From NCBI RefSeq assembly GCF_001620365.2, contig NZ_LQMT02000007.1, positions 429,358 through 493,357 of the forward strand: a stretch of DNA of 64,000 nucleotides. The letters run 5' to 3'. The position numbers and the translations under genes are program-made. Source of the stretch: Amycolatopsis keratiniphila subsp. keratiniphila (GTDB lineage: Bacteria > Actinomycetota > Actinomycetes > Mycobacteriales > Pseudonocardiaceae). This document shows positions 35,901 to 60,479 of the stretch, piece after piece. Numbering within the stretch: position 1 is the first letter of the stretch; every line of letters begins with the position of its first letter. The notes beneath the pieces are model-generated. The model ran no database searches. It saw only the letters and a list, made by a program, of their open reading frames with translations, and was not told the origin of the DNA.

Positions 35901-37811
35901 GTACGGCGTGCCCTGATCTTCGGTGAAGACCGTGCGCAGGGCCTCGTGCCGCGCCATGACGTCCGCCACCGAGGCTTCGAGGGCCGCGCGGTCCAGATCG
36001 CCCCGCAACCGGACGGCGAAAGGCAGACTGTAGGTCGGCGAAGCCCCCAGCTGGCCGAGAAACCATAACCGTTGCTGTGCGGGAGAAAGCGGGATCGATT
36101 CGGGCCGGGTCACCGGCCGGATCGCCGTCCGCGCCGTCCCCCGCTCCCGGACCAGGGCCGCCAGCAGGGCCGGCGTGGGCGCGTCGAAGACACAGCGGAT
36201 GGACACCTCGGCGTCGAGACGGCCGACCAGCCGGGCAGCGAGCAGCGAATGCCCGCCCAGTTCGAAGAAGTTCGCGTGCACGCCGACTTCGTCCACGCCG
36301 AGCACTTCGCCGAACAACGAGCACAGGATCGCTTCCTCGGCGTCGCGCGGCGGGGAGAAGGTCGTGGTCCGCACGGGCACCGGCAGTGCCGCCCGGTCAA
36401 GTTTTCCGTTTCCGGTCAACGGAATCCGTTCCAGCGGAACAAGGCTGTGCGGCACCAGATGCGAGGGCAGCCGCTGGCTCAGCCACTCGCGTACGCGGAC
36501 CAGCGAGTCTTCGTGGCGCGCGACGACGTAGCCGATCAGCCCGGTTTCCCCGCTGTCGTACCGGCGCGCGACCACGGCGGCGGACGCGACTTCGGAATGT
36601 TCCTCCAGCGCGGCCCGGACTTCTTCCGGTTCCACGCGGATTCCCCGGATCTTCACCTGGTCGTCCGCGCGCCCCTCGAACCGGAGCCCGCCATCCTCGT
36701 TCTTCCGGACGAGGTCGCCGGTGCGGTACATCCGCTCACCCGGCCCGAACGGGCACGCGACGAACCGTTCGGCCGTCAGGTCCGGCCGGTCGGCATAACC
36801 ACGGGCCAGGCCCGCCCCGGCGATGTAGAGCTCCCCGACCGCGCCGTCGGCGACCTGGTCGAGTCTTTCGTCCAGGACGTAGACCCGCATGCCGGCGAGT
36901 GGCCGCCCCAGTGGCAGGACACCTTCCTCCACATCGGACAGCTCGGCGGCCGTGGTAGTGATCGTGGTTTCGCTGAGTCCGTAGGCGTTGATCACCGGTA
37001 CCGGGGACGTCCGCCGCCATGCTCGCAGATCCGTGGCGTGCCCGGCCTCGCTGCCGGTCACAACAAGCCGCAGGCTGTCCAGACGGGAGGCGTCGAGCTC
37101 TTTGGTCCACTGTGTCCAGTAGGAGGTGGGCAAGTTGACCACCGTGATCTGCTCCCGCGCGAGGAACTCTTCGAAGCGAACGACCGGCGGTACGGCCTCG
37201 GGCAGCACCACGACCCGGCCACCGGCCGCCAGTGTCGGGAAAAGCTCCTCGGCGTACACGTCGAAGGCCACGTTGGAGAATTGCAGCACCCGGTCCTCGC
37301 CCGTCAGCCCGTACCTCCGGCCTGCGGCCACGATGTGGTTGGACAGCGCGCCACGCGGGATGGCCACGGGCTTCGGCTCACCGGTCGAACCGGAGGTGAA
37401 CACGACGTAGGCGAGATCTTCGGGACGTGACGTGCGCGGGCCCGCCACCGTCCGCCCCGGCCTGACCGGCCGCACGCCCTCGGGCGCGGGTTCGTCGGTG
37501 ACGATGAACCGCGCTCCCGCCGTCTGGATCATCCGGTCCCCGCGCGGGCGCGGCGCGCCGGGGTCCAGCGGAAGATACGCGGCGCCGGACCAGAGTACGC
37601 CGAGCAGCGTGGCGGCCAGCCCGGCTCCTCTCGGCAGCCGCACCGCCACGACGTCATCCGGCCGGACCCCGGATTCGATGAGCGCGGCGGCGATTCTGCC
37701 CGCCTCGACACCGAATTCGCGATACGTCAACCGGCCGTCGTCGGCCGCGACCGCGATCGCGGAGTCGCCGCGCAGGCGGATCTGTTCGTCGATGAGAAGG
37801 CCGACGTCCAC
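32955..37811 (-). CDS. Nonribosomal peptide synthetase, A-T-C-A-T (probable initiation protein)
   Basis: A 1618-residue NRPS. Domain order: A1 about 10-480 (core VVFTSGSTGEPKPVAI, YRTGDLV, GNGKLDRAAL), T1 with FFELGGHSLL (Ser 522), C about 570-1000 with NHIGTDG, A2 about 1030-1530 (YTSGSTGRPKGVVL, YRSGDLGR) and T2 ending FFELGGHSLLVTR. It lacks an N-terminal condensation domain, so it is the natural start of the assembly line. By-eye specificity residues read D-V-E-N-V-T-A-I-T-K for A1 and D-M-H-Y-V-G-E-G-V-K for A2; neither matches a code I can assign. GTG start at 37811 follows AGGAG, 13 bp after the upstream MbtH gene. No epimerase or thioesterase domain is present. It is the last gene of the operon. 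Confidence 0.93.
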   Translation of the reverse strand: MDVGLLIDEQIRLRGDSAIAVAADDGRLTYREFGVEAGRIAAALIESGVRPDDVVAVRLPRGAGLAATLLGVLWSGAAYLPLDPGAPRPRGDRMIQTAGARFIVTDEPAPEGVRPVRPGRTVAGPRTSRPEDLAYVVFTSGSTGEPKPVAIPRGALSNHIVAAGRRYGLTGEDRVLQFSNVAFDVYAEELFPTLAAGGRVVVLPEAVPPVVRFEEFLAREQITVVNLPTSYWTQWTKELDASRLDSLRLVVTGSEAGHATDLRAWRRTSPVPVINAYGLSETTITTTAAELSDVEEGVLPLGRPLAGMRVYVLDERLDQVADGAVGELYIAGAGLARGYADRPDLTAERFVACPFGPGERMYRTGDLVRKNEDGGLRFEGRADDQVKIRGIRVEPEEVRAALEEHSEVASAAVVARRYDSGETGLIGYVVARHEDSLVRVREWLSQRLPSHLVPHSLVPLERIPLTGNGKLDRAALPVPVRTTTFSPPRDAEEAILCSLFGEVLGVDEVGVHANFFELGGHSLLAARLVGRLDAEVSIRCVFDAPTPALLAALVRERGTARTAIRPVTRPESIPLSPAQQRLWFLGQLGASPTYSLPFAVRLRGDLDRAALEASVADVMARHEALRTVFTEDQGTPYQTVLPVESVRVDLPVEYPEDVDAAIRHDIDTPFDLSADPPLRVRLFGIGPEEHVLLLTMNHIGTDGWSMRPLARDLHDAYSARLAGAAPAWSPLPVQYVDYTLWQADLLGPSRKRTPLALRQLDFWRRTLRDLPEDVPATDLPRPSVSSGRGEAVPITIEQASHRAAAALARRTGTTVFMIVQSTVAALLTRLTAATDIPIGTPVAGRGDPALEQLIGFFANTVVLRTDTGGDPTLLDLARRVRQTDLDAFDNQDVPFGDVVEAVNPGRSLTRNPLFQVMLLLAGEKDGEGFRFPGLTADTRDVFTGAALVDLLFDLVERYDADGSPAGVHGRLEVAADLYLPESVSLMAKRFAALFERWVARPDLPLSEVDLFLGNERADVLDRWNATEVPLPDITLPGLIEKQVAATPDAPAIRSADGEITFAELNERANRIAHLLLSRGIGPGDHVGVLLARGPRQIEAFVGILKCGAAYLPIDPAYPGDRIRFMIEDSHPAIVFAAAADSLPCEVLTPADLASVTGLPVSNPLPADRPRPLTADTPNYVVYTSGSTGRPKGVVLPAKVLLNEMLWHATQAPYEPDARVAQFSAIGFDMSEHEMLTALINGKTLCVPDEDTRSDPARLARWLDDERVTEFYATNAIMAAVYEAATEQGLGFVALRHLVQGGEMLHLTPSVRAFHAARPWLLLHNEYGPSETHGVTGAALPADVGEWPYQPTVGPPIWNTQVFVLDERLRPVPVGIVGELYLAGNNVAHGYLGRPDLTAARMVANPFGPLGSRMYRSGDLGRWRSGGSLELVGRVDDQVKIRGVRIELGELNSVIGTHPAVGQAATVLREDRPGDRRLVAYVVPARSGPAPTVAELRRHVAAAVPEPVVPSAFVVLSMLPVTANGKVDQARLPKPIHVGTARHTPSTEQETVVCDLFMEVLDADEVGVHDNFFELGGHSLLVTRLLSRMRGKLGVELTVRTVFEAPTPAELAARIDSAG

Positions 37812-37824
37812 TCGCTCGCTCCTG

Positions 37825-38034
37825 TCAGCTCAGTTGTGCCCGCAGGCTTTGTGGTCGCATATCCGTCCAGTGCTCACGAATGTGCGTCAGGCAGGACTCG
37901 CGATCGGTGGGCCCGAATACGACGGTCCAGCCCACGGGCACCTCCGCGAAAGCCGGCCAGAGCGAATGCTGTCCCTCGGCGTTGACCAGCACGTGGAACC
38001 GCTCGTCCGGCGCGTCGAATGGGTTGGGCGTCAA
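37825..38034 (-). CDS. MbtH-like protein (second copy)
   Basis: A 69-residue MbtH-family chaperone: [33 protein letters not shown], then [19 protein letters not shown], with the three conserved tryptophans. These proteins bind adenylation domains and support their solubility and activity. The start is a TTG at 38034 with AGGGA 6 nt upstream and a 4-bp TTGA overlap with the preceding dehydrogenase stop. Its position directly before the A-T-C-A-T synthetase suggests it serves that protein, while the other MbtH gene precedes the remaining two synthetases. Confidence 0.92.
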
Positions 38035-38924
38035 CGACTTTCCCTTTCGCTCGGATTCAGGCAGGCGACGAGGTTGGCCAGCAGCCCGGCTTCGGCGCGA
38101 CGCACCGATTCCGCGGTCCTGGCGGCATAGAGTTCGTGCAGTTCGACTCCGGGCACCTGCTTGGCGGCAGCGGACAGACCGTGCCCCGCGCACAGGTCGA
38201 GTACGACCTTTCCGGTGCGGCCCCGTTGCCACTCGATCAGATCGGCTTCGGCCATGGGCAGGCCCAAGGTCGTCAGGACGACCACGGCTTCCGACGGCAC
38301 GCTCTTCAGCTCGTCGAGGCCGACGACGTGGCGATAGGCGGGCGAATGGAAGGTCAGGTAGTCGGAGGTGGCCAGCACTGTCCGGAGCGGAGCCCACCGT
38401 GGCCCGCCCGCCGCCGCGAGGCGATGGGTGGGCGTATGGAACAGGACGTCCATCCCCAGCGCTGTGGCGATCCGGCCGACGCCCTGCCCGACGGGGCCGT
38501 AACCGATGACGCCCAGGCGACGTCCGGACAGTTCCCCGCGCGCCGGGTCGCCTCGACGCGCGTGCCGCAGGAGCTGTTCCGCGACGAACTCCATGGTCCC
38601 GATGTCGCCGTAGCCCTGGATCGGCGAGACAGTGACGCCGTGACCGGTCGCGTAGTCCAGATCCACCCGGTCGGTCGACGTGGCCCGCAAGCCGATGTAG
38701 CGCAGCGCGGGCAGCTGGGCCAGCCGGTCCGCGCCGAGTTCGTCCTTCCAGCCGGCCAGGATGGCGTCGGTGCCGACGAACGCCCGCCGGTCCGCGGAGT
38801 TCTCGGACGGCCATTCGGGCAGCACCAACGGCGGTCGCTCACTCACCGCGCACAACCGTTCCAACAGCCCGCTGGTCGGCCAGACGCCGGGCAGCACGGA
38901 GATCTGGGAGAAGGTGGCCGTCAT
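38031..38924 (-). CDS. D-2-hydroxyacid dehydrogenase-fold NAD-binding protein with degenerate active site
   Basis: A 297-residue protein with the NAD-binding motif of D-isomer 2-hydroxyacid dehydrogenases ([31 protein letters not shown]) and the expected following strands ([32 protein letters not shown]). The usual catalytic Arg, Glu and His are not visible: the NxxRG position reads TTLGLPMAE, and the terminal TPHxxxxT region reads [10 protein letters not shown]. It may act on another substrate, or be non-catalytic. ATG at 38924 lies 10 bp after the ThDP enzyme. In the operon it would reduce or oxidise an intermediate made by the ThDP enzyme; that is speculative. Confidence 0.7.
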
Positions 38925-38934
38925 CGTCCGCGCC

Positions 38935-40476
38935 TCACAATGCGGCCACGGGTGGTATGACGGCCTCGATGAGATGCGGGCCCGGTTCGGCGAGCGCCTC
39001 ACGGAACTTTCCGGCGAACCCCTCCGCCGTGTCGACGCGCGCGCCGGGTATGCCCATCCCCGCTGCCAGTGACACGAAGTCCAGCCCAGAGATGTCGATG
39101 AACTCCCTGGCCCGGTCCAGGTCCGCGTCGGTGAAGGTACCGACTCTGCCCAGTTCGCCCGCCAAGATCGCGTACGAGGAGTTGTTCAGGATGACGGTGG
39201 TGACGTTCAGGCTTTCGCGCGCCTGCGTCCACCAGGACTGCGGGGTGTACATCGCGCTGCCGTCGGCCACGAAGCAGATCACCGGCCGGTCCGGGCAGGC
39301 CAGCGCAGCACCGGTGGCGGCGGGCGTGCCCATCCCGATCGACCCGCCGGTGAGGCTGAGCCAGTCGTGCCAGGGCGCATCGGCGGTCGCGGCGGGCAAG
39401 TGCTGGCCGGAGGTCATGGATTCGTCGACGAGCACGGCGCCTTCGGGCAACAGCGCTCCGGTGACGGCCGCGACCGCTTCCGCGGTCAGCCCTCCGGTGG
39501 GCATGCCGGGGCGCGCCCGCGGCCCGTCGTCCGGGAGTTCGCCCGCCGCGATCAGTTCGGCCAGGTACTCCAGTGCTGCGGCCGACTGGCCGAGTTCGTG
39601 CACTTCGGTTTCCGGGGAAACGAGCTCGCTGGGTTTGCCCGGATAGGCGAAGAACGCCACCGGGGGCCGGGCACCGGCGAAGACGATGTGCCGATAGCCA
39701 CGCAACGTCCCCAGGGCCTCGTCGACCGGGTACGGCAGGCGCACCAGGTCCGGGATACCGCCGCCACGCTCGTGCCGGGCGGGCGATTTCTCTGCCAGCA
39801 GCCGGGTACCGGTCGCCCGCGCTATCCGGCGGGCCGCGCGCAGTCCGTCCCGCCGCATGACGGCACCGCCGACGAACAGCAGACAGCCTTCCTCGTTCCT
39901 CAGGACCTTGGCGACCCGCTCCACCTCGTCCGCGTCGAAGCCGTCCGGCGGGATCGCCGGGATCGGCGCGACGCTTCCCCCGGCCGACCAGCAGACGTCC
40001 GAAGGGAGGATCAGGGTCGCCACACCGCGTCCGGTGCGCGCGGCGACGAGGGCTTCGGCGATGTCCGAGCCGACGTGCTCGACGCTCGTCGTACGGCGGA
40101 CCCAGGTCGACACCGTTCCCGCCATGGACTCGATGTCGGAGTCCAGTGGCGGATCGAACGCCTTGTGGTACGTGGCGTGGTCGCCGACGAGATTCACCAA
40201 CGGGGTGGCGGCCCGGCGGGCGTTGTGCAGATTCGCCAGGCCGTTCCCCAGGCCCGGCCCGAGATGCAGAAGCGTAGCGGCCGGTTTCCCGGCCATCCGG
40301 CCGTAACCGTCGGCGGCGCCGGTCGCGACTCCCTCGAACAGGCAAAGCACGTTGCGGATCGACGGCCTGGTCGCCATTTCGGCGACCAGGTGCATTTCCG
40401 AGGTCCCCGGATTCGTGAAACAGAAGCCGACACCGGCGGCGCCGAGCGTCTCCATCACCACCTGTGCGCCGTTCAT
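38935..40476 (-). CDS. Thiamine diphosphate-dependent enzyme, acetolactate synthase/benzoylformate decarboxylase type
   Basis: A 513-residue ThDP enzyme with all three regions: the N-terminal PYR domain (NGAQVVMETLGAAGVGFCFTNPGTSEM, with the catalytic Glu in CLFEGVATGAADGYGRM), a central domain, and the PP domain with the diphosphate/Mg motif (FVADGSAMYTPQSWWTQARESLNVTTVILNN, GDG written here as ADGSAMY...NN). The HATYHKAFDPPLDSDI segment is typical of the decarboxylase-like large-subunit homologues. It overlaps the dioxygenase stop by ATGA. It probably decarboxylates or carboligates a 2-oxo acid for one of the unusual building blocks. Which reaction cannot be told. Confidence 0.85.
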   Translation of the reverse strand: MNGAQVVMETLGAAGVGFCFTNPGTSEMHLVAEMATRPSIRNVLCLFEGVATGAADGYGRMAGKPAATLLHLGPGLGNGLANLHNARRAATPLVNLVGDHATYHKAFDPPLDSDIESMAGTVSTWVRRTTSVEHVGSDIAEALVAARTGRGVATLILPSDVCWSAGGSVAPIPAIPPDGFDADEVERVAKVLRNEEGCLLFVGGAVMRRDGLRAARRIARATGTRLLAEKSPARHERGGGIPDLVRLPYPVDEALGTLRGYRHIVFAGARPPVAFFAYPGKPSELVSPETEVHELGQSAAALEYLAELIAAGELPDDGPRARPGMPTGGLTAEAVAAVTGALLPEGAVLVDESMTSGQHLPAATADAPWHDWLSLTGGSIGMGTPAATGAALACPDRPVICFVADGSAMYTPQSWWTQARESLNVTTVILNNSSYAILAGELGRVGTFTDADLDRAREFIDISGLDFVSLAAGMGIPGARVDTAEGFAGKFREALAEPGPHLIEAVIPPVAAL

Positions 40477-41216
40477 GCCGCGATCTGCACACGCTTGAGA
40501 TGCCGTTCGGGATCCTCGAAGGCGTTGCGGGAGTGCAGCATCCGCCAGTTGTCCCAGACCAGCAGGTCGTGTCGCCGGTAGCGGACCGCGATATGCCGTT
40601 CGGCGAACAGCTCGTTGCCCCGGTCGATCACCCGCCGCGCGACGTCGTCGCCGTCGGGGACGACGAGATAGTTGGTGGAGAACCGGAAGATCGTCTCGCC
40701 GTCGTGTTCTTCCAGTACCGGGTGCTCCGCCGTCGGCCGGACACCATGACGGGCAAGCCCTTCGGTGGATCCCCAGCGATAGGCGGTGTCACGTAGATGG
40801 ACCCGTTCGTCGTCGGTGAACTCGGTCAGAACCCGGTTGCCGTCGAAGATCGTGGTCTCCCCACCCTGGCCGGCGGGCGGGTTGACGCACCACAGGCCGA
40901 GGTAGCGCGGCGGGAGCCCATGGAACTCGTAGCCTTCCGTATGCGGCGTCAAACCTCCGCGGTTCTGTCCGTGGTTGACGTCGTCCATGCCTCGCTCGGG
41001 TTTCACGTCGCCGACGACCGTTCCGGTCGGCGTGGGCTGGAATTCGCCCATCTCCTTGAGGAATTCGACGTGGTCGAAGCTTTCGGGAACGTTGACGACA
41101 TGGACATACCCGTTGTTCCCCAGCAATTGCCGGAAGGCGTACCTGAGCACGCCGTCGGCGAGCACGTCGCCGTTCATGTCCACACAGGACAGCACACTGT
41201 CGGGATTCCTGGCCAT
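40473..41216 (-). CDS. TauD/clavaminate synthase-like Fe(II)/2-oxoglutarate dioxygenase (HxE type)
   Basis: A 247-residue dioxygenase. Iron ligands: LTPHTEGYEFHG (His-Thr-Glu, so HxE rather than HxD) and the distal His in VWDNWRMLHSRNAF; the 2-oxoglutarate-binding Arg is in HLKRVQIAA. The HxE variant is known from clavaminate synthase and amino acid beta-hydroxylases such as VioC, which suggests hydroxylation or desaturation of an amino acid, free or carrier-bound. ATG at 41216 follows AAAGGAG. It is 46 bp after the MFS transporter stop and coupled to the ThDP gene. Confidence 0.85.
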   Translation of the reverse strand: MARNPDSVLSCVDMNGDVLADGVLRYAFRQLLGNNGYVHVVNVPESFDHVEFLKEMGEFQPTPTGTVVGDVKPERGMDDVNHGQNRGGLTPHTEGYEFHGLPPRYLGLWCVNPPAGQGGETTIFDGNRVLTEFTDDERVHLRDTAYRWGSTEGLARHGVRPTAEHPVLEEHDGETIFRFSTNYLVVPDGDDVARRVIDRGNELFAERHIAVRYRRHDLLVWDNWRMLHSRNAFEDPERHLKRVQIAA

Positions 41217-41262
41217 GGAGGCTCCTTTGTTCACGATCAGGTTCTCTGGGACAAATCGCGCA

Positions 41263-42504
41263 CTAGGTCAACGAATGATCGGCGTCGACCGGAATGTCGG
41301 CATCGCGGACCACCTTGTGCAGCGTGGCGAAGATCGCGACGGTCAGCATGATGCCCGCGAAAACGAGAAGGGCACCGACGGAACCGAGTGATTCGTAGAG
41401 GAACGCGGCGGCGAGCCCGGCCAGCGGGACCGGCGCTCCGGCGATCAGGACGGCCGCGCTCTGCACCCGGCCCATCAGCTCGTCCGGGATCAGCACCAGC
41501 CAGCGTGCCATGATGACCGCGTTCCACACCGGCCAGACCGACATAGTCAGGCCGAGCAGGAGACCCATCGAGAGATAGTCGGTGGTCAGCGCGAGCGCCG
41601 CGACCATCGGCGCGCCGATCCAGGCGACACCGGCGACAATGAGCCGCATCGACCCGATCCGTTTCTGGATCAGTGGTGCCAGCAGAGATCCTGCCACACC
41701 CCCGGCGCCGCCGAGTGCGAGCATGAAGCCGATCTCGACCTCCGACACTCCCTCCCGCTGCGCGATCACCACGAGCAGCAGGAAAAGCCCGTTGATGACG
41801 AAGTCGCTCGCGGAGACGAACAACGCCGTCCAGCGGAGGAACGGCTTGCTCCAGAACCACGTCACCCCCTCCTTGATATCCCGCAGCAGATGCGGTGCCC
41901 GTGTCCGCGGTGGCGCGGGCAGCGGTGTGCGCAGTGCGAGCACGGTCAGCAACGAGCCCACGTAGGCGATCGCCTCCGCGACGAAGGGCAGGAAATTCCT
42001 GATGCCGAACAGCAGACCGCCCACCGGCTGTCCGGCCAGTTCGGCGCCGTAGGCACGGCCCTGGTTCAGGGCGATGGCGGTGGAAAGCTGGCTCTCGTCG
42101 ACGACAATCCTGCTCAACGCCGCCGATTCGGCCAGCTGGAACGGAACCGCGAGCGTCGCGTCCACAGCCGCGTACACCACGAGATGCGCGAAGGTCAGCT
42201 CGTCCGCCAGCAACGCGACCGCGACACTGCCTGCCGCCAGCGCCCGCCCCAGGTCGCAGCTGATCATCACGGTACGCCGGTTCAGCCGGTCGACGAAGGC
42301 CCCGGCCGGAAGCTGCAGCAAAATGAAGGGCAGGTTCCCGGCGAGGGCGACGATCCCGGCTTTGATCGGTGAGCCGGTGGCCACCAGCACGAGCAGGGGA
42401 AGCGCGACCGAGGACATCGTCGAGCCCAGCGCGGACAGCGTCTGGCCGATCCACAACAGCCGGAAGTCGCGGTTCTGACGAAGCGGAACAAGTTGCCCCG
42501 TCAT
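41263..42504 (-). CDS. MFS transporter, probable peptide/siderophore exporter (EntS-like)
   Basis: A 413-residue protein with about 10-12 membrane segments starting LLWIGQTLSALGSTMSSVALPLLVLVATGSP. The loop LPAGAFVDRLNRRTVMISCDLGRALAA is the MFS motif A region, and the central cytoplasmic loop is charged (LRTPLPAPPRTRAPHLLRDIKEG). It resembles EntS-type exporters found in NRPS clusters. Start ATG overlaps the stop of the thioesterase-containing NRPS (ATGA). Likely exports the finished peptide and may give self-protection. Confidence 0.87.
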   Translation of the reverse strand: MTGQLVPLRQNRDFRLLWIGQTLSALGSTMSSVALPLLVLVATGSPIKAGIVALAGNLPFILLQLPAGAFVDRLNRRTVMISCDLGRALAAGSVAVALLADELTFAHLVVYAAVDATLAVPFQLAESAALSRIVVDESQLSTAIALNQGRAYGAELAGQPVGGLLFGIRNFLPFVAEAIAYVGSLLTVLALRTPLPAPPRTRAPHLLRDIKEGVTWFWSKPFLRWTALFVSASDFVINGLFLLLVVIAQREGVSEVEIGFMLALGGAGGVAGSLLAPLIQKRIGSMRLIVAGVAWIGAPMVAALALTTDYLSMGLLLGLTMSVWPVWNAVIMARWLVLIPDELMGRVQSAAVLIAGAPVPLAGLAAAFLYESLGSVGALLVFAGIMLTVAIFATLHKVVRDADIPVDADHSLT

Positions 42505-45500
42505 GGTTCGCTCCGCTGAACCCGGTCACCGGACAGGAGTTCGGCGAGCCGCCCGACGTGGGGTTCCTCCAGGATCCCGAGATGACTGCCCGGCACGGTG
42601 GTCCGGGTATATGCGGTGCCCGCCAGCAACCGTTGCCACGAAGCGGAATACTCTGCCGGGTCGATGTCCTGGACCACCGTATGCGCCCCGGTGGCGATCT
42701 CCTCGCCGAAGACGAGGTCCACAGGCCACCGCGCCACTTCGAAGCGGTAGCCGAAGATCGCCTTGAGCAGGCTGTTCCATCCACGGACCCGCTCCGACCA
42801 CTCGTCGTCGGTCAGGTCGTCTTCCGGCAACTCCTCGTCGAGCAGCTCCGCCAGCAGCGCGAACGCCTCGGCGCGCACTCGGCTCTCGCCTCCGCTCAGT
42901 GCGGCGAAAAGTTCTTCGCATCGCTGGAAATCCCGCAGCTGGTCGGTGGCGTCGGAAACCGGGGCCACCGGATCGATCAGGGTCAGCGTCACCTCCCGGC
43001 CCGCCTCGGTGAGCAGTCTGGCCATCTCCCACGCGATGGCGCTGCCGCCGCACCAGCCCAGAAGACGCACTCCGGACGCGGTCACCTCGTCGTCCAGCTG
43101 ATCCAGGTAGTAGCGGGCCAGTCGAGCGACCGTGACGCCGTCGGGGAACCGTCGCGATCCCTCGAAGCGGAACCCGCCCACCGGCTGGTCCTCGGGCAGC
43201 GAGGCGGCGAGGTTCTCGTACCAGTGCACGTCACCGCCGCCGGGGTGCACGCACAGCAACGGTGCAGCGGCCCCCGTTTCGCGGAACCAGACCAGCGGCC
43301 CCTCCGGCCGCGCGCTGTCCGCTCCCTCCGCGATCCTGGCGATCGTCCGCCACCGGATGACGTCGGCTCCGGACACGGCGTGGCCCAGGATCGTCGCCAG
43401 CTGCGAAGCCAGCCGCACGGCCAGCAGGGAATGCCCACCCAGCCGCAGGAAGTCGTCATGCACGCTGACCTGGTCGACGCGCAGGACCCGTCGCCATACG
43501 GCCGCGATCCCGGCTTCCCGTGCGTTCCTCGGAGGCACCAGATCGGTGCGGCGGGCGTCGTCCACCCGTGTCCGTTCCAGCGTTGCCCGGTCGATCTTGC
43601 CGCTTTCGCTCCTGGGCAGTTCGTCGAGACGGACGATCCGGGACGGCATCAGGTAGCCGGCGAGCCGGTCGCGGAGGAAATCCTCGATCTCCGTTTCGGA
43701 AACCGTGCCCCCGTCGGCTGTCGTCACGAAGGCGGAGAGATGCCGCAGTTCCCCCTCTCCCTGGACCACGGCGACCGCCTGCCGGACCTCCGGATGGGCC
43801 TGGAGCGCCGACTCGATCTCGCCGAGCTCGATCCGGTGCCCGTTGACCTTCACCTGGTGGTCCGACCGGCCGAGGAACAACAGTTCGCCGCCGGGTCGGC
43901 GGACCACCCGATCACCGGTCCGGTAAAGGCGTGCCCCGGGGACTTCGCCGAACGGATCCGGTACGAACCGGTCCGCGGTCTGGCCGGGCCTTCCCGCGTA
44001 TCCGCGGCCGAGACCGGCACCACCGAGGCACAGCTCTCCCGGCACCCCGACCGGCACCGGATCGAGCCACGAATCCAGGACGTAGGCCGTGGCATTGGCG
44101 ATCGGCCGTCCGATCGTCACCCCTCGTTCGAGCCCAGGGACGACCTCCACACCGGTCGCCCAGATCGTGTACTCGCTCGGGCCGTACAGGTTGAAGAACC
44201 GCACACGGTCCGACCAGGTGTCGGCCAGCCACTGCGGGCAGCCCTCCCCGGCCACGGCGATCACCGCGAGGCCGGGCACCTTCTCCGGATCCAGCATGGC
44301 CAGCGCCGACGGGACGATGACGAGGTGGCTGACCTCCAGCTCGGTCAGCTGACCGGCGAGGGCGTCCCCGACCGCCTGCTCCCCCGGGTCCGGTACACAG
44401 ACCGTGCCGCCGTGAGCCAGCGCCTGGACGATCTCGAACACGGCCATGTCGAAGACGACCGGAGCCAGTTGGGCGACCCGGTCACCCGGTCCGATGCCCA
44501 GGTCCGCGGCGTGCGGGCCAACGAGGTTGGCCAACCCGCGGTGGGTCAGCATCACGCTCTTCGGCGTGCCGGTGGAGCCCGACGTGCTGATCAGGTACGC
44601 CAGCGAATCGGGCTGCACCGGGACCGGTGCGGCGAGAGCGGGCATGGTGTCGAACGACGCGGGGTCCAGCACCGGGAGCCCGGAGGCGGTGGTGTCCGCA
44701 CCGAGGATCGCGACCGCTCCGGCCTCGCGGAGGACCGTCTCCCGCCGTGCCGGTGGCTGCGAGGGATCCAGGATCAGGAACGCGGCCCCCGCGCGCAGCA
44801 CGCCGAGGACGGCCGTCACGAGTAGCCCGCCGCGCGGCAGGCTGATGCCGACCACGTTCTCCGGGCCGATCCCCCGCGCCGCGAGCCCGGCCGCCACTTG
44901 AGCCGACCGGTGCCGCAGCCGCGCATAGGTGAGCTCACCGGTGGCATCGCATACGGCGGGTTCATGGGCGCGCTCGATAGCCCATCGGTCCACGAGGTCG
45001 ACGAAGGTCGTGTCGCCTCGTTCGGCCGGCCCTTCGGACAGGGCGAGTGCGCGCAGCCGGTCGGCCGGATCGAGCAGGCACCTCCGGGGGTCGCCGAGGG
45101 GCGTGGTGGCCATCGCGGTCAGCACCTGGTTGAGCAAGCGTCCCAGCAGTTCTCCGTACTCCGGTGCCACACGCTCCGGCCGGGCCGTGATCGCCACGCA
45201 GTCGAATTCGGTCGACACCGCGATGGCGAATTCGTTGGGGCTGACGTCCTGCAGTTCGTCGACGTCGACCAGTTCCTCGTCGAGCACATGGAAATCGAGG
45301 AAGTTGAAGGCCGTCTCGACGAGTGGCGCGTCGCCTCCCCAGTCCCGCCGCATCTTGGGCATCGGATAGCGGCGATGCGGATGGACCGCGATCTCCTCGG
45401 CGAAGACGTCCTTGACGTACCGCGTCCAGGTGTCCGGGACGGTCGGGGCGGCGAACGGCACGATGTTGAGGAACATGCCCCGGACGTCGTCGCCGCGGAG

Positions 45501-48500
45501 CCGCTCCGGCCTGCCGTTGGTAACCAGACCGGCGAAGAACCGGTCCTGGCCGGTCGCGATCCCCAGCATCCTCAGGTAGGCGGCGAGCACGACGGTCTTG
45601 TACGGCACCGCGGCGGTCCGTGCGAGCGCCCGCAGTCCCTCGTCTATCCCCTTCAACGGCACCCGCACCTCGTAATGCGCCGCGCCAACGGGACCGGACC
45701 ACAGTTCGGGCAGCGTGAGCCGCTCCCATTCCCCGGTCACCCGCCCGGCCCAGAACGCCCGGTCCGCCGCGGAGCCGATCGACGCCCGTTCCAGCGCGAT
45801 GGCGTCGGCGAACCGCACCGTGTCCGGCCCGGACTCCTCGATCTCGTGGCCGTCACGGCACTTCTCGTAGGTCCGCAACAGCTCGACGACGAAGGAGTTG
45901 TGGCTCCAGCCGTCGAGTATCGGGTGGAACTCGACCAGGCACAGCTGCCAGCGGTCGGGCGCCGAAACCACGACGTGCAGGCGCCACAACGGGGCCGCGT
46001 CGAGGTCGAACAGCTCGGCGCGCTCTGCCGCGATGACCTCCCACAAGCGGGAGGACTGTTCCGCCTCGGCGATGTCGCTCAGGTCGGTACACCGGATCAC
46101 GACCGCCGGCTCCCCGTACACGAGTTGAAGCGGCTCGGTGAAGTTCTCGACGTCGAACGACGTCCGCAGTACGTCGTGGCGTGCCGTGACGATCCGGGCC
46201 GCCCGCCGCAACGCGTCCAGGGAGAACGTCCCCTTTTCCCGGACCGGGTAACTGGTCACGTTGTGGTAGCGGTGCACGTCGTCGTCGCGCAGGAACTCGT
46301 AGACCATGCCCGCCTGCGCCTCCGCCAGCGGATACGCGTCGACGACACCGTCCCGCAGGCAGGCGCGGTCCTCGCCGGAGATCAGCGCGAACGGCGGCGT
46401 CAGCTCGTCCGCTTCGACGAATCCGCTCGCCAGCCCGGCGATCTCCTCCACGGTCTGGCGACGGAACAGGTCCGCGACGGTGACCTCGAATCCCTGTGCG
46501 CGCAACATGCCGACCGCCCGCACGGCCCGGATCGAGTCTCCGCCCATGGTGAAGAAGTTGTCCTTCGCCCCCACCCGGGGCACTTCGAGGACCGCCGCGA
46601 AGATCGTCGCGGCGGCGGTCTCCGCCGCCGAGCGCGGCGCCACGTAAGCGACCTGGGAATCCACCCGCGGTTCGGGCAACGCCGCCCGGTCGAGTTTCCC
46701 GTTGACCGTCAACGGGATACGGGGAATGCCGACGACCGCCGCGGGCATCATGTACCGCGGCAGCCTGGCCGCCGCGTGCCGGAGCACGTCCGCCGGTTCG
46801 AACTCCCCCGAAGCGACCACGTAGCCGAAGACGCGTCCGTCACCGGGACCCGACCACGTCACGTCGACGACCGCCGCGGCCACGGCCGGATGGCTCGACA
46901 GGGCCGCCTCGATCTCCCCGAGTTCGATCCGGTGGCCGCGGATCTTGATCTGCTGGTCGGCCCTTCCGAGGTATTCCACCTCACCGCCCGCGGTCAGCCT
47001 GCCGAGATCACCCGACCGATAGAGCCGCGCTCCCGGCTCGACGGCGAACGGGTCCGGCAGAAACCGGTCCGCCGTCAGCGCCGCACGGCCGTGGTAGCCC
47101 CGGGCCACCCCGGCGCCACCGACGTGGATCTCGCCGGGGACGCCGATCGGCGCGGGGCGTCCGGCCTCGTCGAGGACGTGCAGCCGCATATCCGCCAGCG
47201 GGCGGCCGATCGGGCTGCGGCCCGCGACGGTGCCCCCTCGGCACTCGGCGGGCTCGATCACCCGGAAGGTGGTGTGCACCGTGGTTTCGGTGATGCCGTA
47301 CATGTTGATCATCACCGAGGAGGCCGTGCCGCTCCACCGCGACCACGGGCCCAGCAGACCGGGATCGAGGGCCTCCCCGCCGAAGATCACCGCCCGCACC
47401 ACCAGCCCGGCATAGTCACCTCGTTCTTCGAGTGCCTGGGTGAGTCCGGCGAACGCGGACGGCGTCTGGCTGAGGACCGTCACGCCTTCCTCGGCCAGAA
47501 GCCGGAGAAAGTCCTCCGGTGACCGGGAGACCTCGAACGGCACCTGCACGAGCCTGCTTCCGTGCGTCAGTGCACCCCAGATCTCCCAGACCGAGAAGTC
47601 GAACGCGTACGAGTGGAAGGCCGTCCACACGTCGTCCGGACCGGTCGCCAGCTCAAGGTCGATGGCACCGAACAGCCGCATGACGTTGCGGTGGGTGACC
47701 ATGACGCCCTTGGGCAGGCCGGTCGACCCCGAGGTGTACATGACATACGCGAGGTCGTCTGGATCCACCACGACATCGAGGGCGTCTTTGGCGTACGCCC
47801 CGAGCAAGTCTCGCGTCGTCGCGTCGAGGACGAGCGTCCGCGCGTCGATCCCCTGTCGCGACCGTGGTTCCGTGATGACGAGCCGGACGGCCGCGTCGCC
47901 GATCATGAAGTTGACGCGATCCTCCGGCTGCTCCGGGTCCAGCGGGAGATACGCCGCGCCCGCCTTCAGCACCGCCAGGAGCGCGACGATCAAACGAGGC
48001 TCGGTGGGCAGCCGAACGCCGACGAGATCACCCTTGCCGACACCGAGTTCGCGCAAATGCCGGGCGAGCTGATTGCTCTGTTCGTCGAGCTCCCGATAGG
48101 ACAGCCTGCTCGTCCCGCAGCACACCGCCGTGTTCCCGCCCGCCTCGGCGGCTCGGCGCGCGACCTCTTCGTGGATGCCGCCGGCCACCGGGATCGACGT
48201 CGCCTCACCGGGTTCCCACCGGTCCAGCTCGGTGGTGAAACCGAGCCGGGAGACGGGGACCTGGGGCCGCGCGGCGATGGCAGCCACCAGCGCCACGAAA
48301 TGCCCGGCCATCCGCTGGACCGTCGCCCGGTCGAACAGGGCGGTCGGATAGACGATGTCGCCGGTCCAGTCGCCTTCCCCGGTCACCGTGATCGCGAACG
48401 AAAGGTCGAACTTCGCCGCGATCCAGTCGACGTCCACCGCCGCCCCGGTAAGCCCGGTCATCGCCAGGTCTTCTTCGCCGTCGCCCTCCGCGACGGTCAG

Positions 48501-49658
48501 GCTCACCTGGAACAAGGGGTTGCGCGAGAGATCCCGGTTCGACCGCAATTCGGTGACCAGCCAGTCGAACGGCACGTCCTGGTTGGCGAAGGCCTCGACC
48601 GACGTGGCCCGTACCTCGTCGAGCAGGTCCCTGAAGGACGGATCGGCCGACAGGTCGGCACGCATGACCAGCATATTCCCGAAGTAACCGATGGTGTCCG
48701 CCAGATCGGCCCGCGGCCGCGAGGCGGACGGCACACCCACGGCGATGTCCTGCTGCCCGGAGTATCGCCCGAGAAACGCATGCACGACGGCGAGCAGGGT
48801 GACGAACGCCGTGGCGCCGGCGTCCCGGCCGGTGGCCCGCAGCGCATCCGCCACCGCCGCGGGGATGACGAACCCCTCCGAACCGCCGTCGGACCGCCAT
48901 TCGGCCGGATGGGGCCGGTCGGTGAACAACGTGAGCGTGTCCAGGCCCGACAGCCTGGTGCGCCAGTACTCCAGCTGCCCTTGGCCGACACTCCCCCGAC
49001 TCCGGTCCCGTTGCCACCGGGCGTAGTCGCAGTACTGCGTGCGGACTTCGGGCAGCGACGGCGGCCGCGACTCCACCTTCGCCGAGTACAGTTCGGAGAT
49101 CTCGCGCAGCAGCAGTCCGCTGGACCAGCCGTCGAACGCGATGTGATGCACACAGACGAGCAGCACGGTCCTGGCGGGCCCCAGTTCGATCAGGTCGGCC
49201 CTGATCGGATGTTCGCGGCGAAGGTCCACCGGCGTCCGGGTCAGCTCGGCGATCACGGACTGGAGCTGCGACTCGGCACAAGCGTTACGGCGGAGTGTCA
49301 CCGGAGCGGGCTCGTCGATCACTTGGACCGGCTCGCGTCCTTCGAGTACATAACGCGTACGCAGGACTTCGTGGCGCGCGACGACCGCTGTGAGCGCCTC
49401 GGCCAGCGCGCTCTCGTCGAGTTCGCCGTCGAGCCGGAACGCCATCGGGATCAGGTATTCGTCCTGCCCGGGCCGTAGCTGGTCCAGCAGCCAGAGCCGT
49501 TGTTGCGCGAACGACAGCGCCTGCGGTTCGGCACGGTCGAGCCGGGGAATCCCGTCGGCGGCGGACGGTTCGGATCCCCGGCCTGCCAGCCGTCGTTCCA
49601 CCAAAGCCTTGCGCAGTTCGGCGAGAGTGCGCCCAGCGGGCTCAGCGTCGATCGTCAT
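42501..49658 (-). CDS. Nonribosomal peptide synthetase, C-A-T-C-A-T-TE with cysteine thioesterase
   Basis: A 2385-residue terminal NRPS. C1 about 45-480 (HHIAFDG at 171-177); A1 about 495-1000 with residues reading D-F-W-S-I-G-M-V-H-K, close to the Thr code DFWNIGMVHK; T1 of the GGDS type (Ser 1042); C2 about 1108-1530, an atypical condensation domain opening YPLAEAQAGMVYEF with HPILDG at 1245-1250; A2 about 1545-2035 (D-M-F-V-A-A-L-I-W-K, unassigned); T2 (Ser 2077); TE about 2125-2385. The TE nucleophile elbow is GWCGG (2201-2205), so Cys 2203 replaces Ser; the terminal His is in PGSHLGI. Cys thioesterases are known to close strained rings such as beta-lactones and beta-lactams. ATG start overlaps the upstream NRPS stop. 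Confidence 0.94.
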   Translation of the reverse strand: MTIDAEPAGRTLAELRKALVERRLAGRGSEPSAADGIPRLDRAEPQALSFAQQRLWLLDQLRPGQDEYLIPMAFRLDGELDESALAEALTAVVARHEVLRTRYVLEGREPVQVIDEPAPVTLRRNACAESQLQSVIAELTRTPVDLRREHPIRADLIELGPARTVLLVCVHHIAFDGWSSGLLLREISELYSAKVESRPPSLPEVRTQYCDYARWQRDRSRGSVGQGQLEYWRTRLSGLDTLTLFTDRPHPAEWRSDGGSEGFVIPAAVADALRATGRDAGATAFVTLLAVVHAFLGRYSGQQDIAVGVPSASRPRADLADTIGYFGNMLVMRADLSADPSFRDLLDEVRATSVEAFANQDVPFDWLVTELRSNRDLSRNPLFQVSLTVAEGDGEEDLAMTGLTGAAVDVDWIAAKFDLSFAITVTGEGDWTGDIVYPTALFDRATVQRMAGHFVALVAAIAARPQVPVSRLGFTTELDRWEPGEATSIPVAGGIHEEVARRAAEAGGNTAVCCGTSRLSYRELDEQSNQLARHLRELGVGKGDLVGVRLPTEPRLIVALLAVLKAGAAYLPLDPEQPEDRVNFMIGDAAVRLVITEPRSRQGIDARTLVLDATTRDLLGAYAKDALDVVVDPDDLAYVMYTSGSTGLPKGVMVTHRNVMRLFGAIDLELATGPDDVWTAFHSYAFDFSVWEIWGALTHGSRLVQVPFEVSRSPEDFLRLLAEEGVTVLSQTPSAFAGLTQALEERGDYAGLVVRAVIFGGEALDPGLLGPWSRWSGTASSVMINMYGITETTVHTTFRVIEPAECRGGTVAGRSPIGRPLADMRLHVLDEAGRPAPIGVPGEIHVGGAGVARGYHGRAALTADRFLPDPFAVEPGARLYRSGDLGRLTAGGEVEYLGRADQQIKIRGHRIELGEIEAALSSHPAVAAAVVDVTWSGPGDGRVFGYVVASGEFEPADVLRHAAARLPRYMMPAAVVGIPRIPLTVNGKLDRAALPEPRVDSQVAYVAPRSAAETAAATIFAAVLEVPRVGAKDNFFTMGGDSIRAVRAVGMLRAQGFEVTVADLFRRQTVEEIAGLASGFVEADELTPPFALISGEDRACLRDGVVDAYPLAEAQAGMVYEFLRDDDVHRYHNVTSYPVREKGTFSLDALRRAARIVTARHDVLRTSFDVENFTEPLQLVYGEPAVVIRCTDLSDIAEAEQSSRLWEVIAAERAELFDLDAAPLWRLHVVVSAPDRWQLCLVEFHPILDGWSHNSFVVELLRTYEKCRDGHEIEESGPDTVRFADAIALERASIGSAADRAFWAGRVTGEWERLTLPELWSGPVGAAHYEVRVPLKGIDEGLRALARTAAVPYKTVVLAAYLRMLGIATGQDRFFAGLVTNGRPERLRGDDVRGMFLNIVPFAAPTVPDTWTRYVKDVFAEEIAVHPHRRYPMPKMRRDWGGDAPLVETAFNFLDFHVLDEELVDVDELQDVSPNEFAIAVSTEFDCVAITARPERVAPEYGELLGRLLNQVLTAMATTPLGDPRRCLLDPADRLRALALSEGPAERGDTTFVDLVDRWAIERAHEPAVCDATGELTYARLRHRSAQVAAGLAARGIGPENVVGISLPRGGLLVTAVLGVLRAGAAFLILDPSQPPARRETVLREAGAVAILGADTTASGLPVLDPASFDTMPALAAPVPVQPDSLAYLISTSGSTGTPKSVMLTHRGLANLVGPHAADLGIGPGDRVAQLAPVVFDMAVFEIVQALAHGGTVCVPDPGEQAVGDALAGQLTELEVSHLVIVPSALAMLDPEKVPGLAVIAVAGEGCPQWLADTWSDRVRFFNLYGPSEYTIWATGVEVVPGLERGVTIGRPIANATAYVLDSWLDPVPVGVPGELCLGGAGLGRGYAGRPGQTADRFVPDPFGEVPGARLYRTGDRVVRRPGGELLFLGRSDHQVKVNGHRIELGEIESALQAHPEVRQAVAVVQGEGELRHLSAFVTTADGGTVSETEIEDFLRDRLAGYLMPSRIVRLDELPRSESGKIDRATLERTRVDDARRTDLVPPRNAREAGIAAVWRRVLRVDQVSVHDDFLRLGGHSLLAVRLASQLATILGHAVSGADVIRWRTIARIAEGADSARPEGPLVWFRETGAAAPLLCVHPGGGDVHWYENLAASLPEDQPVGGFRFEGSRRFPDGVTVARLARYYLDQLDDEVTASGVRLLGWCGGSAIAWEMARLLTEAGREVTLTLIDPVAPVSDATDQLRDFQRCEELFAALSGGESRVRAEAFALLAELLDEELPEDDLTDDEWSERVRGWNSLLKAIFGYRFEVARWPVDLVFGEEIATGAHTVVQDIDPAEYSASWQRLLAGTAYTRTTVPGSHLGILEEPHVGRLAELLSGDRVQRSEP

Positions 49659-52600
49659 CGCTGGTCGGCCTCCAAGTTCTCGGTTGCTAGTGCCAGGACT
49701 TCGGCGTCCGACAGTCCGGCGAAGGCCGCTTCCACCTCGCCGCGAATCATGGCGGCGAGAGCCTCGACGGTCGTCGCCGTGAAGAACCGGTGCAGGGGCA
49801 GTTCGACCCCGAACGCCTCCTGCGTCCGCATGGACACCCGCGTGGCGGAGAGGGAATGGCCACCGAGCTGGAAGAAGTCGTCCGCCGGGCCGATACCGGT
49901 CATCCCGAGGACCTCGCCCCAGATTCGGGCGACTTCCCGTTCGGTGGGGTCCATCGGGCGGACGTCCACGCGGCTGTCGTGGAAGACCGGCTTCGGCAAA
50001 CGGGCATGGGCCACCTTCCCGTTGGGCGTCAACGGGATCTTGTCGATCACGGTCAGAGCCGCGGGGACCATGTGCGGCGGGAGTCGCTTGTGGACATACG
50101 CCCGTACCGCGTCGGTTCCGGTTCCGGTGTCGACGACGACATAGCCGAGCAGTCCCTGATCGCCGGCGGGGAGCGGACCGGGGACCACGACCGCGGCCCG
50201 CACTCCGGGGCAGGCGGACAGGACGGTCTCGACCTCGGCCGGTTCGATCCGGAAGCCGCGGATCTTCACCTGCCGGTCCGCGCGGCCGAAGAACTCGACG
50301 ACACCGTCCGGTCGCATCCGGACGAGGTCGCCTGTGCGGTAAAGGCGGGCACCCGGAGGCCCGGACGGATCCGGTACGAAGCGGTCGGCGGTCAGGTCCG
50401 GCCGGTTCACATAGCCCCGGGAAACCCTGCCGCCACCGACGTACAACTCACCGACCGCTCCGGGAACGACCGGCCGCGCCGACGAGTCGAGCACCGACAG
50501 CCCGCAGCCTGGCAGTGCCCGTCCCAAGGGGAGGGCGCCACGTCCGGCACGCTCAGCCTCCCGTTCATCGACGAGCTGGAAGGTGCAGGCGATGGTCGCC
50601 TCGGTCGGCCCGTAGGTGCAGCCGAACTCCGCCGGCACACCGAGCGCGTGCCAGGCGGCCGCGTCTTCGCCGGTCACCACGTCGCCGCCGACACTCATCA
50701 ACCGCAGCCCGCCGAGCCGGGGATCACGGGGTCGCGCGGCCCGGCACAGTTCGCGGAAATAGACCGGGGTGACGTCCACGACGGTGACACCGTGGTCGTG
50801 GAGGTCCCGCAGCATCCGGTCCGGCGTCACCGCCCGCGCGTCGAGCACGACCACCGCGGCGCCGCTGACCAGCGGGGCCAGCATCTGGTCCATCGAGGCG
50901 TCGAAGCTCAGCGAGGCGAGCAGAGCCAGCCTCTCCCCCGGTCCGAGCCGGTAGGCCCCGGCCATCACCTGGCAGTGATGCGAGAGTGCGGTGTGGTCGA
51001 CCAGCACACCCTTGGGACGGCCGGTCGAGCCGGACGTGAAGATCACGTACGCGAGATCAGCCCGCGGTGCCGTCAGACGTCGTGACGAGCGCTCCGCGAT
51101 GGCGGTGGCGTCCCGGAGGACATCGATCACCGGGACGTCGCAGGCGAAGGCCTCGTTCGTCACCACCACCACTGGCGCGGTCTCGGCGATCAGCGCGTCG
51201 ATCCGGTGCCGCGGCTCCGCGGTGTCGAGCGGAAGGTAGACGGCGCCGCATTTGAGCACGGCCAGCAGCGTCACGACCGTCCACGCCGTCCGTCCCACGC
51301 GGACCGCCACCACCGAACCGGCGACCACACCGCCGGCGATCAGATGCCGTGCGAGCCGGTTGCTCCGCTCGTCCAGTTCCCGGTACGTCACCGTCCCCGC
51401 CGGGTCCACGACCGCGATCGCGTCGGGCAGCTTCCGCGCCTGCTCGGCGAAGATCTCCATCACCGGCCGTGGATCGTCGTGGTGCCAGGCCACCCGGCCG
51501 TCCCGTTCGGCGTCCGAACGAAGGTCGATGTCGGCGAGGTCGGCTTCCGGCCGCTCGGCCACCCCGGCGGCCAACCGGGCGAACCGCTCTGACAGGCGGG
51601 TGATCGTGGCGGGATCGAACAACGCCGTGGCGTACTCGAACTCGCCGGTCCAGCTACCGTCGGGATTCGGGCGCAGCGAAAGGCTCAGGTCGACCATCGC
51701 CGACCGTGGGGTCAGCTCGACCTCCTGGACGGACAGCCCCGCCAAGGGTAATCCGGGGCCGGCCTCCTCGAGAACCTGGAACATCACGTCGAACACCGGC
51801 GTCCTGGCCGGATCGCGATTCGCCCCCAGCTCGGCGACCACGTCGTCGAAGGGGACGAGACGGTGCTCGTACGCCTCGATCAGCAGCGCCCGCACGGAGC
51901 CGAGATGGGTCAGGAAACTGCCACTCACCTCGGGCACCCTCACCGCCATCGTGTTGACGAAACAGCCGATCGGCGCGTCGGATCCGTCGTGGTCGCGGCC
52001 GCTGACCGGAGTGCCGATCACGATGTCGTCCTGTCCGGACACCCGGCTCAGCAATGCCGAGTACAGCGCGAACCAGGTGGCGAACACGGTCGCGCCATCG
52101 CGCTGTCCCAGCCGGACGAGCTCACCCGGAACACGGAACGAGCACACCGAGCCCGAAGGATCCCGGACGTCGGGCCTCGGCCGGTCGGCGGGCAGCTGCA
52201 GCGGGGTGATCCCGGACAGCGCCGTACTCCAGAAATCCAGTCCGCGCGCCAAGTCCTGTGTGTGCTCCCACGCGGCGTAGTCCGCGTACTGCCAAGCCAG
52301 TGGAGGGAGTTCCGCCCCTCGGTAAAGCCGCGCCAGTTCGTCGCCGACGATCTGCCACGACCGGCCGTCGCACGCAATGTGATGGGTCAGGATCAGCAGC
52401 ACATGGTGCTCGGGCTCCGAACGCACCAGCACGAGCCGGAACTGATGGTCCCGTGCCAGATCGAAGCCGTCCTTCGTCAGGTCGGCGAGGATCTGCCGGA
52501 CCGGACGCCCGTCCGCGTCGACGACGTCCAGCGCGACGGCCCCGGGTTCGTCGACGACCTGGACCAGGACCTCTCCGCCGATGTACCGCGTCCGGAGGAT

Positions 52601-55909: not shown

Positions 55910-56097
55910 CGCGCGGCCTGTCGGACGCTCAGCGGCCGCATGTCCGTCCAAATCTCGTTCACCCGCGCAAGGCATTCCTCTCGCGTCCCGGTCGTGCCTT
56001 CGGCCGTCCAGCCGAGCGGCAGGGCACGTTCCGCGGGCCACAAGGAGTACTGCTCCTCGTGGTTGCGGACAACCTGGTAGATCAGATCTTCGGGCAT
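55906..56097 (-). CDS. MbtH-like protein (first copy)
   Basis: A 63-residue MbtH protein: YQVVRNHEEQYSLWPAERALPLGW, then EECLARVNEIWTDMRPLS, with conserved Trp and the NxxxQYSLWP core. ATG at 56097 is preceded by GGAAAGGGAG, and its TGA overlaps the NRPS ATG. It should activate adenylation domains of the two following synthetases. The 37-bp gap to the upstream hydroxylase gene contains only this ribosome-binding site. Confidence 0.95.
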   Translation of the reverse strand: MPEDLIYQVVRNHEEQYSLWPAERALPLGWTAEGTTGTREECLARVNEIWTDMRPLSVRQAAR

Positions 56098-57464: not shown

Positions 57465-57620
57465 TGTCAGCACCTTTCGTCGTTCCTCACCGTGGGCCGA
57501 ATTCCCGGCCGAACCAGCCGACGAATTCACCGGCTGTTCCAACTACCGGCGCACCGTGATCCGCCCGGCAAACAATGGCGGTCGCGCCGTTCCGGAGGCA
57601 AGAAGCGTGAATGACATGGT

Positions 57621-60277: not shown

Positions 60278-60320
60278 GGTGCTCTTCCTCGTGGAAGACG
60301 GTTCGTTCATCGCTGATGTG

Positions 60321-60479
60321 CTAGCAGTGCGGTTCACAAATCGGACCCTTGATGTTGATCATCAACGCGTCGGAGCCCTCCGAAGCGGGCGAGGGCCCCT
60401 CGCTGACGCCGCTCAGGCCCAGCAGCACCCCCAGGGCGGTGACAGCCACGGCCAAACCTGTTACGACGGCTTTCCGCAT
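60321..60479 (-). CDS. 52-residue secreted peptide, putative SdpAB-processed toxin precursor
   Basis: A short gene easily missed by length cut-offs. ATG at 60479 has AAGGAG 5 nt upstream. The first 23 residues are a clear signal sequence (MRKAVVTGLAVAVTALGVLL, then GLSG), followed by a polar stretch (VSEGPSPASEGSDA) and a hydrophobic C-terminus ALMINIKGPICEPHC. The last five residues CEPHC could form a disulfide loop; the B. subtilis SDP peptide also has a Cys-Cys loop of similar size. It stands directly before sdpA- and sdpB-like genes in one operon, so these probably process or export it. It is much shorter than SdpC, so the type may be new. No immunity gene is evident. Confidence 0.7.
   Translation of the reverse strand: MRKAVVTGLAVAVTALGVLLGLSGVSEGPSPASEGSDALMINIKGPICEPHC

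Follow-up and report, generated by a model that had tools for sequence, protein, structure and literature searches.

The last of three nonribosomal peptide synthetases (NRPSs) in a 64,000-nucleotide stretch of the genome of Amycolatopsis keratiniphila subsp. keratiniphila (assembly GCF_001620365.2, contig NZ_LQMT02000007.1, positions 429,358 to 493,357; hereafter the window) ends in a thioesterase (TE) domain with a Cys in the nucleophile position, and this TE was found to belong to a coherent clade of Cys TEs that, in every synthetase examined, follows a module predicted to be dehydrating. The conserved pairing of the Cys-TE clade with this predicted module is the new element of the analysis. 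What had been one odd residue becomes a defined enzyme family, with 33 Cys TEs from four families of one bacterial class, and a prediction follows for many uncharacterised clusters, namely a dehydrobutyrine (Dhb) or dehydroalanine (Dha) near the peptide C-terminus. A literature search found no publication describing this Cys-TE clade or naming the product of its members.

The preliminary description of the window had reported GWCGG in place of the usual GxSxG, and the motif was located at residues 2201-2205 of the synthetase, NRPS3 (window 43044-43058), where Cys2203 is encoded by TGC (43052-43050 on the (-) strand). A frame or sequencing artefact was rejected, as the codon was read directly and the TE of Actinoplanes utahensis (63% identical) carries the same motif. 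Asp2229 (in LIDP; codon 42972-42974) and His2359 (in GSHLG; codon 42582-42584) are the other triad-type residues. The features of an NRPS type I TE are present, with a Pfam match to Thioesterase PF00975 at the C-terminus (residues 2133-2374; 59.6 bits, cut-off 26.4) and an alpha/beta-hydrolase fold in both an AlphaFold model (pLDDT 89.7) and structure comparison. From sequence and model, the domain is read as the releasing type I TE of a six-module NRPS, with a Cys-Asp-His set present.

Cys was shared by 33/33 TEs of the clade, which spans the window's own family and three other families of its class and comprises the TE of the window, that of A. utahensis, nine from the genus, 18 more from the family (G184, G215b and 16 others) and four from the class sample. 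The nine genus TEs, recovered from 80 genomes including the window's own, have 35-38% identity and WCG[GS] in common. A profile built from these nine together with the window and A. utahensis TEs (A1) returned 28 matches at ≤1.6e-69 across 390 genomes of the family, after which the next fell to 3.7e-44, and added four clade members across 394 genomes sampled from the class; because only the best few candidates per genome were scored in these searches, the counts of carriers are lower bounds. In a 59-row alignment, Cys occupied the nucleophile column in 28/28 clade rows and Ser in the 31 remaining TE rows, and every clade row had Gly directly after the Cys and kept both the His and the Asp at position I, one of two positions at which the triad acid may lie. 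The tree of these 59 TEs placed the 28 Cys rows in one group (support, 98/95) nested among Ser TEs, with a single change. Support for the clade was 100/98 in a tree of 61 rows that took in other TEs of dehydrating NRPSs (leaving out L229 and 10 near-duplicate or poor rows), where the Cys label required three changes and marked the WCG clade, a group with GF/YCIGG and two TEs with GHC[AV]G. The simplest interpretation is that Cys was gained separately in the three groups, though gains and losses are indistinguishable by the tool. Overall, the profile searches, the clade-wide Cys and the tree led us to reject the alternative raised in the preliminary description, that the Cys is an incidental variant of a Ser TE.

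Upstream of the TE, NRPS3 carries modules 5 and 6 (Table 1). The adenylation (A) domain A5 has the code DFWSIGMVH, which we take to be Thr-like; here and throughout, the meanings of such codes (Thr, Ser, Asn, Val, Phe and others) are assumed from general knowledge, that of Pro alone coming from a paper, and the codes themselves are alignment-based readings. On this assumed meaning, the Thr-type module noted beforehand is indeed present, though as penultimate module 5 and not as the terminal one. Among solved condensation (C) domains, C6 was closest to those of McyA (7.1e-57) and AmbE (3.4e-43), ahead of the next best (2.8e-25), and a profile of 20 such C domains (A3) repeated the order (McyA, 375 bits; AmbE, 309; then 239). 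The dehydrating class to which C6 is assigned (DHC/CmodAA) is described, in the accessible portion of a review, as acting on Ser or Thr held by a GGDSx carrier (PMC10880069). All three marks of this class occur in NRPS3, as a Thr-like A domain, a GGDSI carrier (T) domain and a DHC-class C domain.

The same arrangement recurred throughout the clade. A dehydrating-class C domain was found upstream of the TE in 28/28 Cys-TE NRPSs examined of the 33 (23 scored, with the window itself as the probe, G215b, and four by coordinates; of G002, G007, G015, G063 and G184 only the Cys was read). The A domain preceding this C domain had a Thr- or Ser-like code in 24/24 members read, and the carrier before it was GGDSI or GGDSM in 23/23 read, plus G215b. 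Only six of 20 more distant control stretches had any C-domain match, and the best C6 score among them was 136 bits (L171); L171 has a carrier with GGDSI, its TE falls among those of Ser-Pro type, and it may be a real dehydrating case, while control L169 is the same gene as the outgroup L162. As the class of C6 implies dehydration, Thr5 is most likely made into Dhb and would not serve as a ring-closing nucleophile.

Other Cys TEs were encountered outside the clade. The GF/YCIGG group (L222, L228-L231 and L233, from class genomes) is a second set of Cys TEs in dehydrating NRPSs, whose DHC domain is followed by a module with a Ser-like code or with DISHVGLVE. The window's own genome holds another Cys TE reading GHCVG (L183; C45:413000-422400), with no dehydrating-class C domain in the stretch read. 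Among 20 further stretches with class-wide matches, pattern matching picked out a TE motif in 12 (7 Cys, 5 Ser) but not in the other 8, which include L234 and L241, whose longest frames had no NRPS match.

NRPS1 is the likely start of the assembly line, since it has no leading C domain, and a line of six modules with a hexapeptide product is expected. The code of the terminal A domain, A6, is DMFVAALIW (partly read by eye) and matches no substrate code that can be named. Terminal codes across 24 clade synthetases were Asn-like in 10, hydrophobic-looking in 8 and DMFVAALIW in 2 (window and A. utahensis), with 4 not read (G053, G261, G333 and G004).

At close to even confidence, we favor a release in which a hexapeptide ending in Dhb-Xaa is taken over by Cys2203 and freed by cyclization, most likely as an ordinary macrocycle and not as a beta-lactone or beta-lactam. 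C6 would dehydrate the T5-bound Thr5 to Dhb and join it to residue 6, the chain would move from T6 to Cys2203 by thioester exchange, and not water but a nucleophile within the chain would then open the thioester, with the ring most likely closed by an amine of the backbone or of a side chain. Because NRPS1 opens with an A domain, the chain should have its N-terminal amine free. We infer a cyclizing release from the conservation of the Cys and from the TEs ObiF and SulM, where, as far as the accessible portions of the sources report, Cys-to-Ser replacement made hydrolysis dominant (ObiF) or led to rapid product hydrolysis (SulM; PMC11298585, PMC6668435). Further, the varied terminal codes of the clade are easier to reconcile with a macrocycle than with a ring whose closure depends on a particular side chain of the terminal residue. 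The unusual ring closure at which the preliminary description hinted stays plausible as a cyclizing release, given these Ser variants, but is weak in its strained-ring form.

Several observations weigh against this reading. In ObiF and SulM the Asp of the triad sits behind strand beta7, at position II, with Gly at position I in ObiF (PMC11298585, PMC6668435, accessible portions), and acidic residues also follow strand beta7 (194-199 in the window model) in 28/28 Cys rows of the clade: the column of E2319 holds Asp in 24/28, Glu in 3/28 (window included) and Ala in 1/28, and that of E2320 holds Glu in 28/28 (Ala in G215b, by eye). These residues keep the choice of triad acid from being final; the invariant Asp at position I, which closes strand 104-109 in the model, suggests that it is the acid, though not decisively over one at position II. 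AB3403, the best structural match and likewise a Cys TE that has its Asp at position I, is described as functionally uncharacterized in the accessible text of PMC11298585, and Cys TEs that only hydrolyze are conceivable. The dehydrating tail does not require a Cys, since a dehydrating-class C domain was also present in 10/14 of the nearest Ser-TE synthetases, with Thr-like codes in all 9 read of those 10 (sister TEs, GWSSG); the DHC association is older than the Cys in the TE. The ending of G004 differs, as its last protein shows no second A domain. Lastly, as only Cys rows went into profile A1, it could favor Cys matches, though the score gap and the tree argue that this bias is not the whole story.

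Hydrolytic release is common for TEs, and the best surviving alternative, though an unlikely one, is plain hydrolysis to a linear hexapeptide acid, with the Cys as an old neutral replacement. The nesting of the clade among Ser TEs is consistent with this, whereas the Cys in 33/33 TEs and the Gly that follows in each of the 28 rows aligned argue against neutrality, and in the two studied Cys TEs, ObiF and SulM, it is the Ser variants that are the hydrolytic ones, according to the accessible parts of the sources.

Less probable again is an enamide closure, in which the beta-carbon of Dhb5 would attack the Cys-bound carbonyl of residue 6 and form a six-membered ring by C-C bonding on release. In its C-terminal order, A(Thr/Ser)-T(GGDSx)-dehydrating C-A-T-TE, the line is similar to synthetases in PMC10880069 and PMC11177316, whose accessible portions hold, as a proposal, that a type I TE drives enamide C-C closure in bacterial pyrrolizidine alkaloids; this proposed closure is the nearest studied parallel to a TE that follows a DHC module, and a Cys thioester may be a better acceptor for a weak carbon nucleophile. 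Pyrrolizidine-type pathways, however, end in Pro or azetidine, and no Pro-like code (VQ(Y/F)IAHVV; PMC3874040, accessible portion) was present among the terminal codes read; DMFVAALIW is unlike it, so the window lacks the terminal Pro module of the LgnD/BraB/PxaA type. The synthetases with Ser-Pro codes (L236, L239 and L240) carry Ser TEs that group elsewhere, and no Baeyer-Villiger monooxygenase was recognized among the window proteins scanned. These three are NRPSs of two modules, one code Ser-like and the other Pro-like, that have a dehydrating C domain and a Ser TE, and are possibly of pyrrolizidine-alkaloid or lipocyclocarbamate type. A broader proposal, which we hold to be comparably improbable, is that WCG[GSA] TEs form a dedicated class, arisen inside the TEs of dehydrating lines, whose Cys thioester would let a Dhb or Dha enamide, or another otherwise too weak nucleophile, attack the terminal residue, giving a C-C-forming, ring-closing release outside proline-terminated pyrrolizidine pathways.

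A strained ring, i.e., a beta-lactone or beta-lactam formed by a Cys TE like ObiF or SulM out of a terminal residue that is beta-hydroxylated or diaminopropionyl, is very improbable: its Cys nucleophile, the acids that follow strand beta7 in each of the 28 aligned rows, the TauD-family H-T-E dioxygenase of the cluster and some genes of relatives are set against the invariant position-I Asp, in place of which ObiF has Gly, a clade profile that scored ObiF1 at 25 bits compared to 105 for Nrps4 and 79 for AB3403 (among the matches listed, best 60 of 72), eight relatives with hydrophobic-looking terminal codes and no obvious beta-nucleophile, a penultimate, probably dehydrated Thr, and no SbnA, SbnB or sulfotransferase recognized among the window proteins scanned. 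The relatives' genes were grouped by BLAST over 23 Cys-TE cluster stretches, with one representative of each family annotated. SbnA-like genes occurred in 11/23 (representative over NCBI cut-offs), SbnB-like in 7/23 (likewise over) and ornithine-carbamoyltransferase-like in 10/23 (representative below the cut-offs of its models, over that of Pfam), which suggests diaminopropionate, perhaps ureidoalanine, in many of the relatives' products; no carbamoyltransferase-like gene was recognized among the window proteins scanned. VioC-like dioxygenases (7 stretches; representative below NCBIfam cut-offs) or other TauD-family dioxygenases (6) were also present. Thr as the nucleophile of a small ring became less likely once the class of C6 was found, and beta-lactam formation by a C domain of NocB type was rejected, on a sequence basis only, as C6 reads EFHPILDG, without HHHxxxDG, and lies nearest to McyA and AmbE. 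The clade poses the question of what benefit a Cys brings to a releasing TE when no strained four-membered ring evidently forms.

A protein with a lantibiotic dehydratase N-terminal domain (PF04738; representative L126:9582-11891) was present in 14/23 Cys-TE cluster stretches in the same grouping, though not in the window.

The genes around the NRPSs (Table 1) include relatives of a tyrosine 3-hydroxylase and an L-DOPA extradiol dioxygenase, neither with a Pfam or NCBIfam match and both placed by similarity to solved structures. Such a pair opens the 4-alkylproline pathway of lincomycin and the pyrrolobenzodiazepines (PBDs), and its presence suggests that the cluster uses a tyrosine-derived building block, a 4-substituted proline or pyrroline unit. 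The odd code of module 2 (DMHYVGEGV, read by eye, with Gly at 330) makes that module a speculative candidate acceptor of the unit, and the thiamine pyrophosphate (TPP)-dependent enzyme might take the product of DOPA cleavage as its substrate, acting at the alpha-keto-acid side chain. The HxE dioxygenase noted beforehand was identified as a TauD-family protein with H-T-E. A. utahensis has an orthologous cluster (three NRPSs, 64, 60 and 66% identity; TPP enzyme, 66%; tyrosine hydroxylase, 55%), where frames for the MbtH proteins, the dehydrogenase relative, the DOPA dioxygenase and the TauD protein were matched by eye.

Table 1. Features of the NRPS cluster in the window, ordered by position.
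Feature	Position	Strand	Basis
NRPS1: A-T-C-A-T, modules 1 and 2; presumed initiation	32955..37811	(-)	domain scan
MbtH-like protein, start codon uncertain	37825..38034	(-)	PF03621
D-2-hydroxyacid dehydrogenase relative, start uncertain	38031..38924	(-)	Pfam over cut-off, NCBIfam models below theirs
TPP-dependent enzyme (acetolactate synthase large subunit family PRK07586)	38935..40476	(-)	nearest solved, benzoylformate decarboxylases
TauD-family dioxygenase with H-T-E	40473..41234	(-)	Pfam, motif reading
Major facilitator superfamily (MFS) transporter	41263..42504	(-)	Pfam
NRPS3, 2385 aa: C5-A5(Thr-like code)-T5(GGDSI)-C6(dehydrating class)-A6-T6(GGHSL)-TE; modules 5 and 6	42501..49658	(-)	Pfam
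NRPS3 terminal TE domain, residues 2120-2385	42504..43301	(-)	Pfam, motif reading, alignment, model
C6 condensation domain, dehydrating (DHC/CmodAA) class	45069..46430	(-)	nearest solved, McyA and AmbE
T5 carrier domain with GGDSI	46434..46607	(-)	motif reading
NRPS2: C-A-T-C-A-T, modules 3 and 4; probably starts at 55909, in overlap with the stop of MbtH	49655..55909	(-)	Pfam
Second MbtH-like protein	55906..56097	(-)	read by eye; similar frame 18598-18789 of the A. utahensis cluster
Heme L-tyrosine 3-hydroxylase family protein	56135..57016	(-)	PDB 7kqr 5.1e-57, 8r2s 6e-56
L-DOPA extradiol dioxygenase family protein	57009..57542	(-)	PDB 6on1 1.8e-48

Other genes lie beside the cluster. Two large STAND-like proteins (20111-28879, (-); NB-ARC with TPRs and a weak nSTAND match) adjoin it and gave only weak single-protein PADLOC matches (TPR; PDC-M54A). 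An SdpB and SdpA pair of the sporulation-delaying-protein system is present at 58821-60337 (-), with SdpB over its NCBIfam cut-off and SdpA over the Pfam but below the NCBIfam cut-off. An AfsR/SARP-like protein (60633-63695, (+); BTAD, NB-ARC, TPR) is perhaps a pathway regulator.

Compared with known systems, the cluster shares its tyrosine 3-hydroxylase and DOPA extradiol dioxygenase pair with the 4-alkylproline pathway of lincomycin, PBDs and hormaomycin (LmbB2 and LmbB1). C6 has its closest solved relatives in McyA and AmbE, though the peptides of those systems are different ones. LgnD, BraB and PxaA (pyrrolizidine alkaloids and lipocyclocarbamates), as far as their accessible descriptions go, likewise combine Ser or Thr, a GGDSx carrier (reported for LgnD), dehydration, one more module and a TE, but in short lines ending in Pro, whereas the window has six modules and a non-Pro terminal code.

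For the TE itself, the comparisons lend no support to a close kinship with ObiF and SulM, the Cys TEs brought up in the preliminary description. The Nrps4 TE (PDB 7crn/7dxo; entitled a bifunctional TE for epimerization and cyclization) had the top clade-profile score, its match covering the N-terminal part, but has a Ser nucleophile. The AB3403 TE (Acinetobacter baumannii, PDB 4zxh) was the best-scoring Cys TE for the clade profile among the matches listed and, at 22% identity, shares both the Cys nucleophile and the position-I Asp. It was also the top structural match, first in Foldseek with the TE model (1.5e-14), though practically tied with Vlm2 (1.8e-14), where ObiF1 ranked 42nd; SulM was neither in the Foldseek top 50 nor among the best 60 of 72 clade-profile matches. 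VIA Z scores indicated one fold throughout (AB3403, 23.3; NocB, 21.8; Nrps4, 21.7; ObiF1 and SulM, 19.9), a coarse ranking, as Z spans only 19.1 to 23.3 across 50 rows. The ObiF and SulM TEs, which fell with type II TEs in their authors' tree (accessible portions of PMC11298585 and PMC6668435), have the Cys nucleophile and the same fold, but differ in the position-II Asp of both, the position-I Gly of ObiF and a terminal residue with a beta-nucleophile, and the specific resemblance of the window TE to these strained-ring TEs so far established is the Cys alone.

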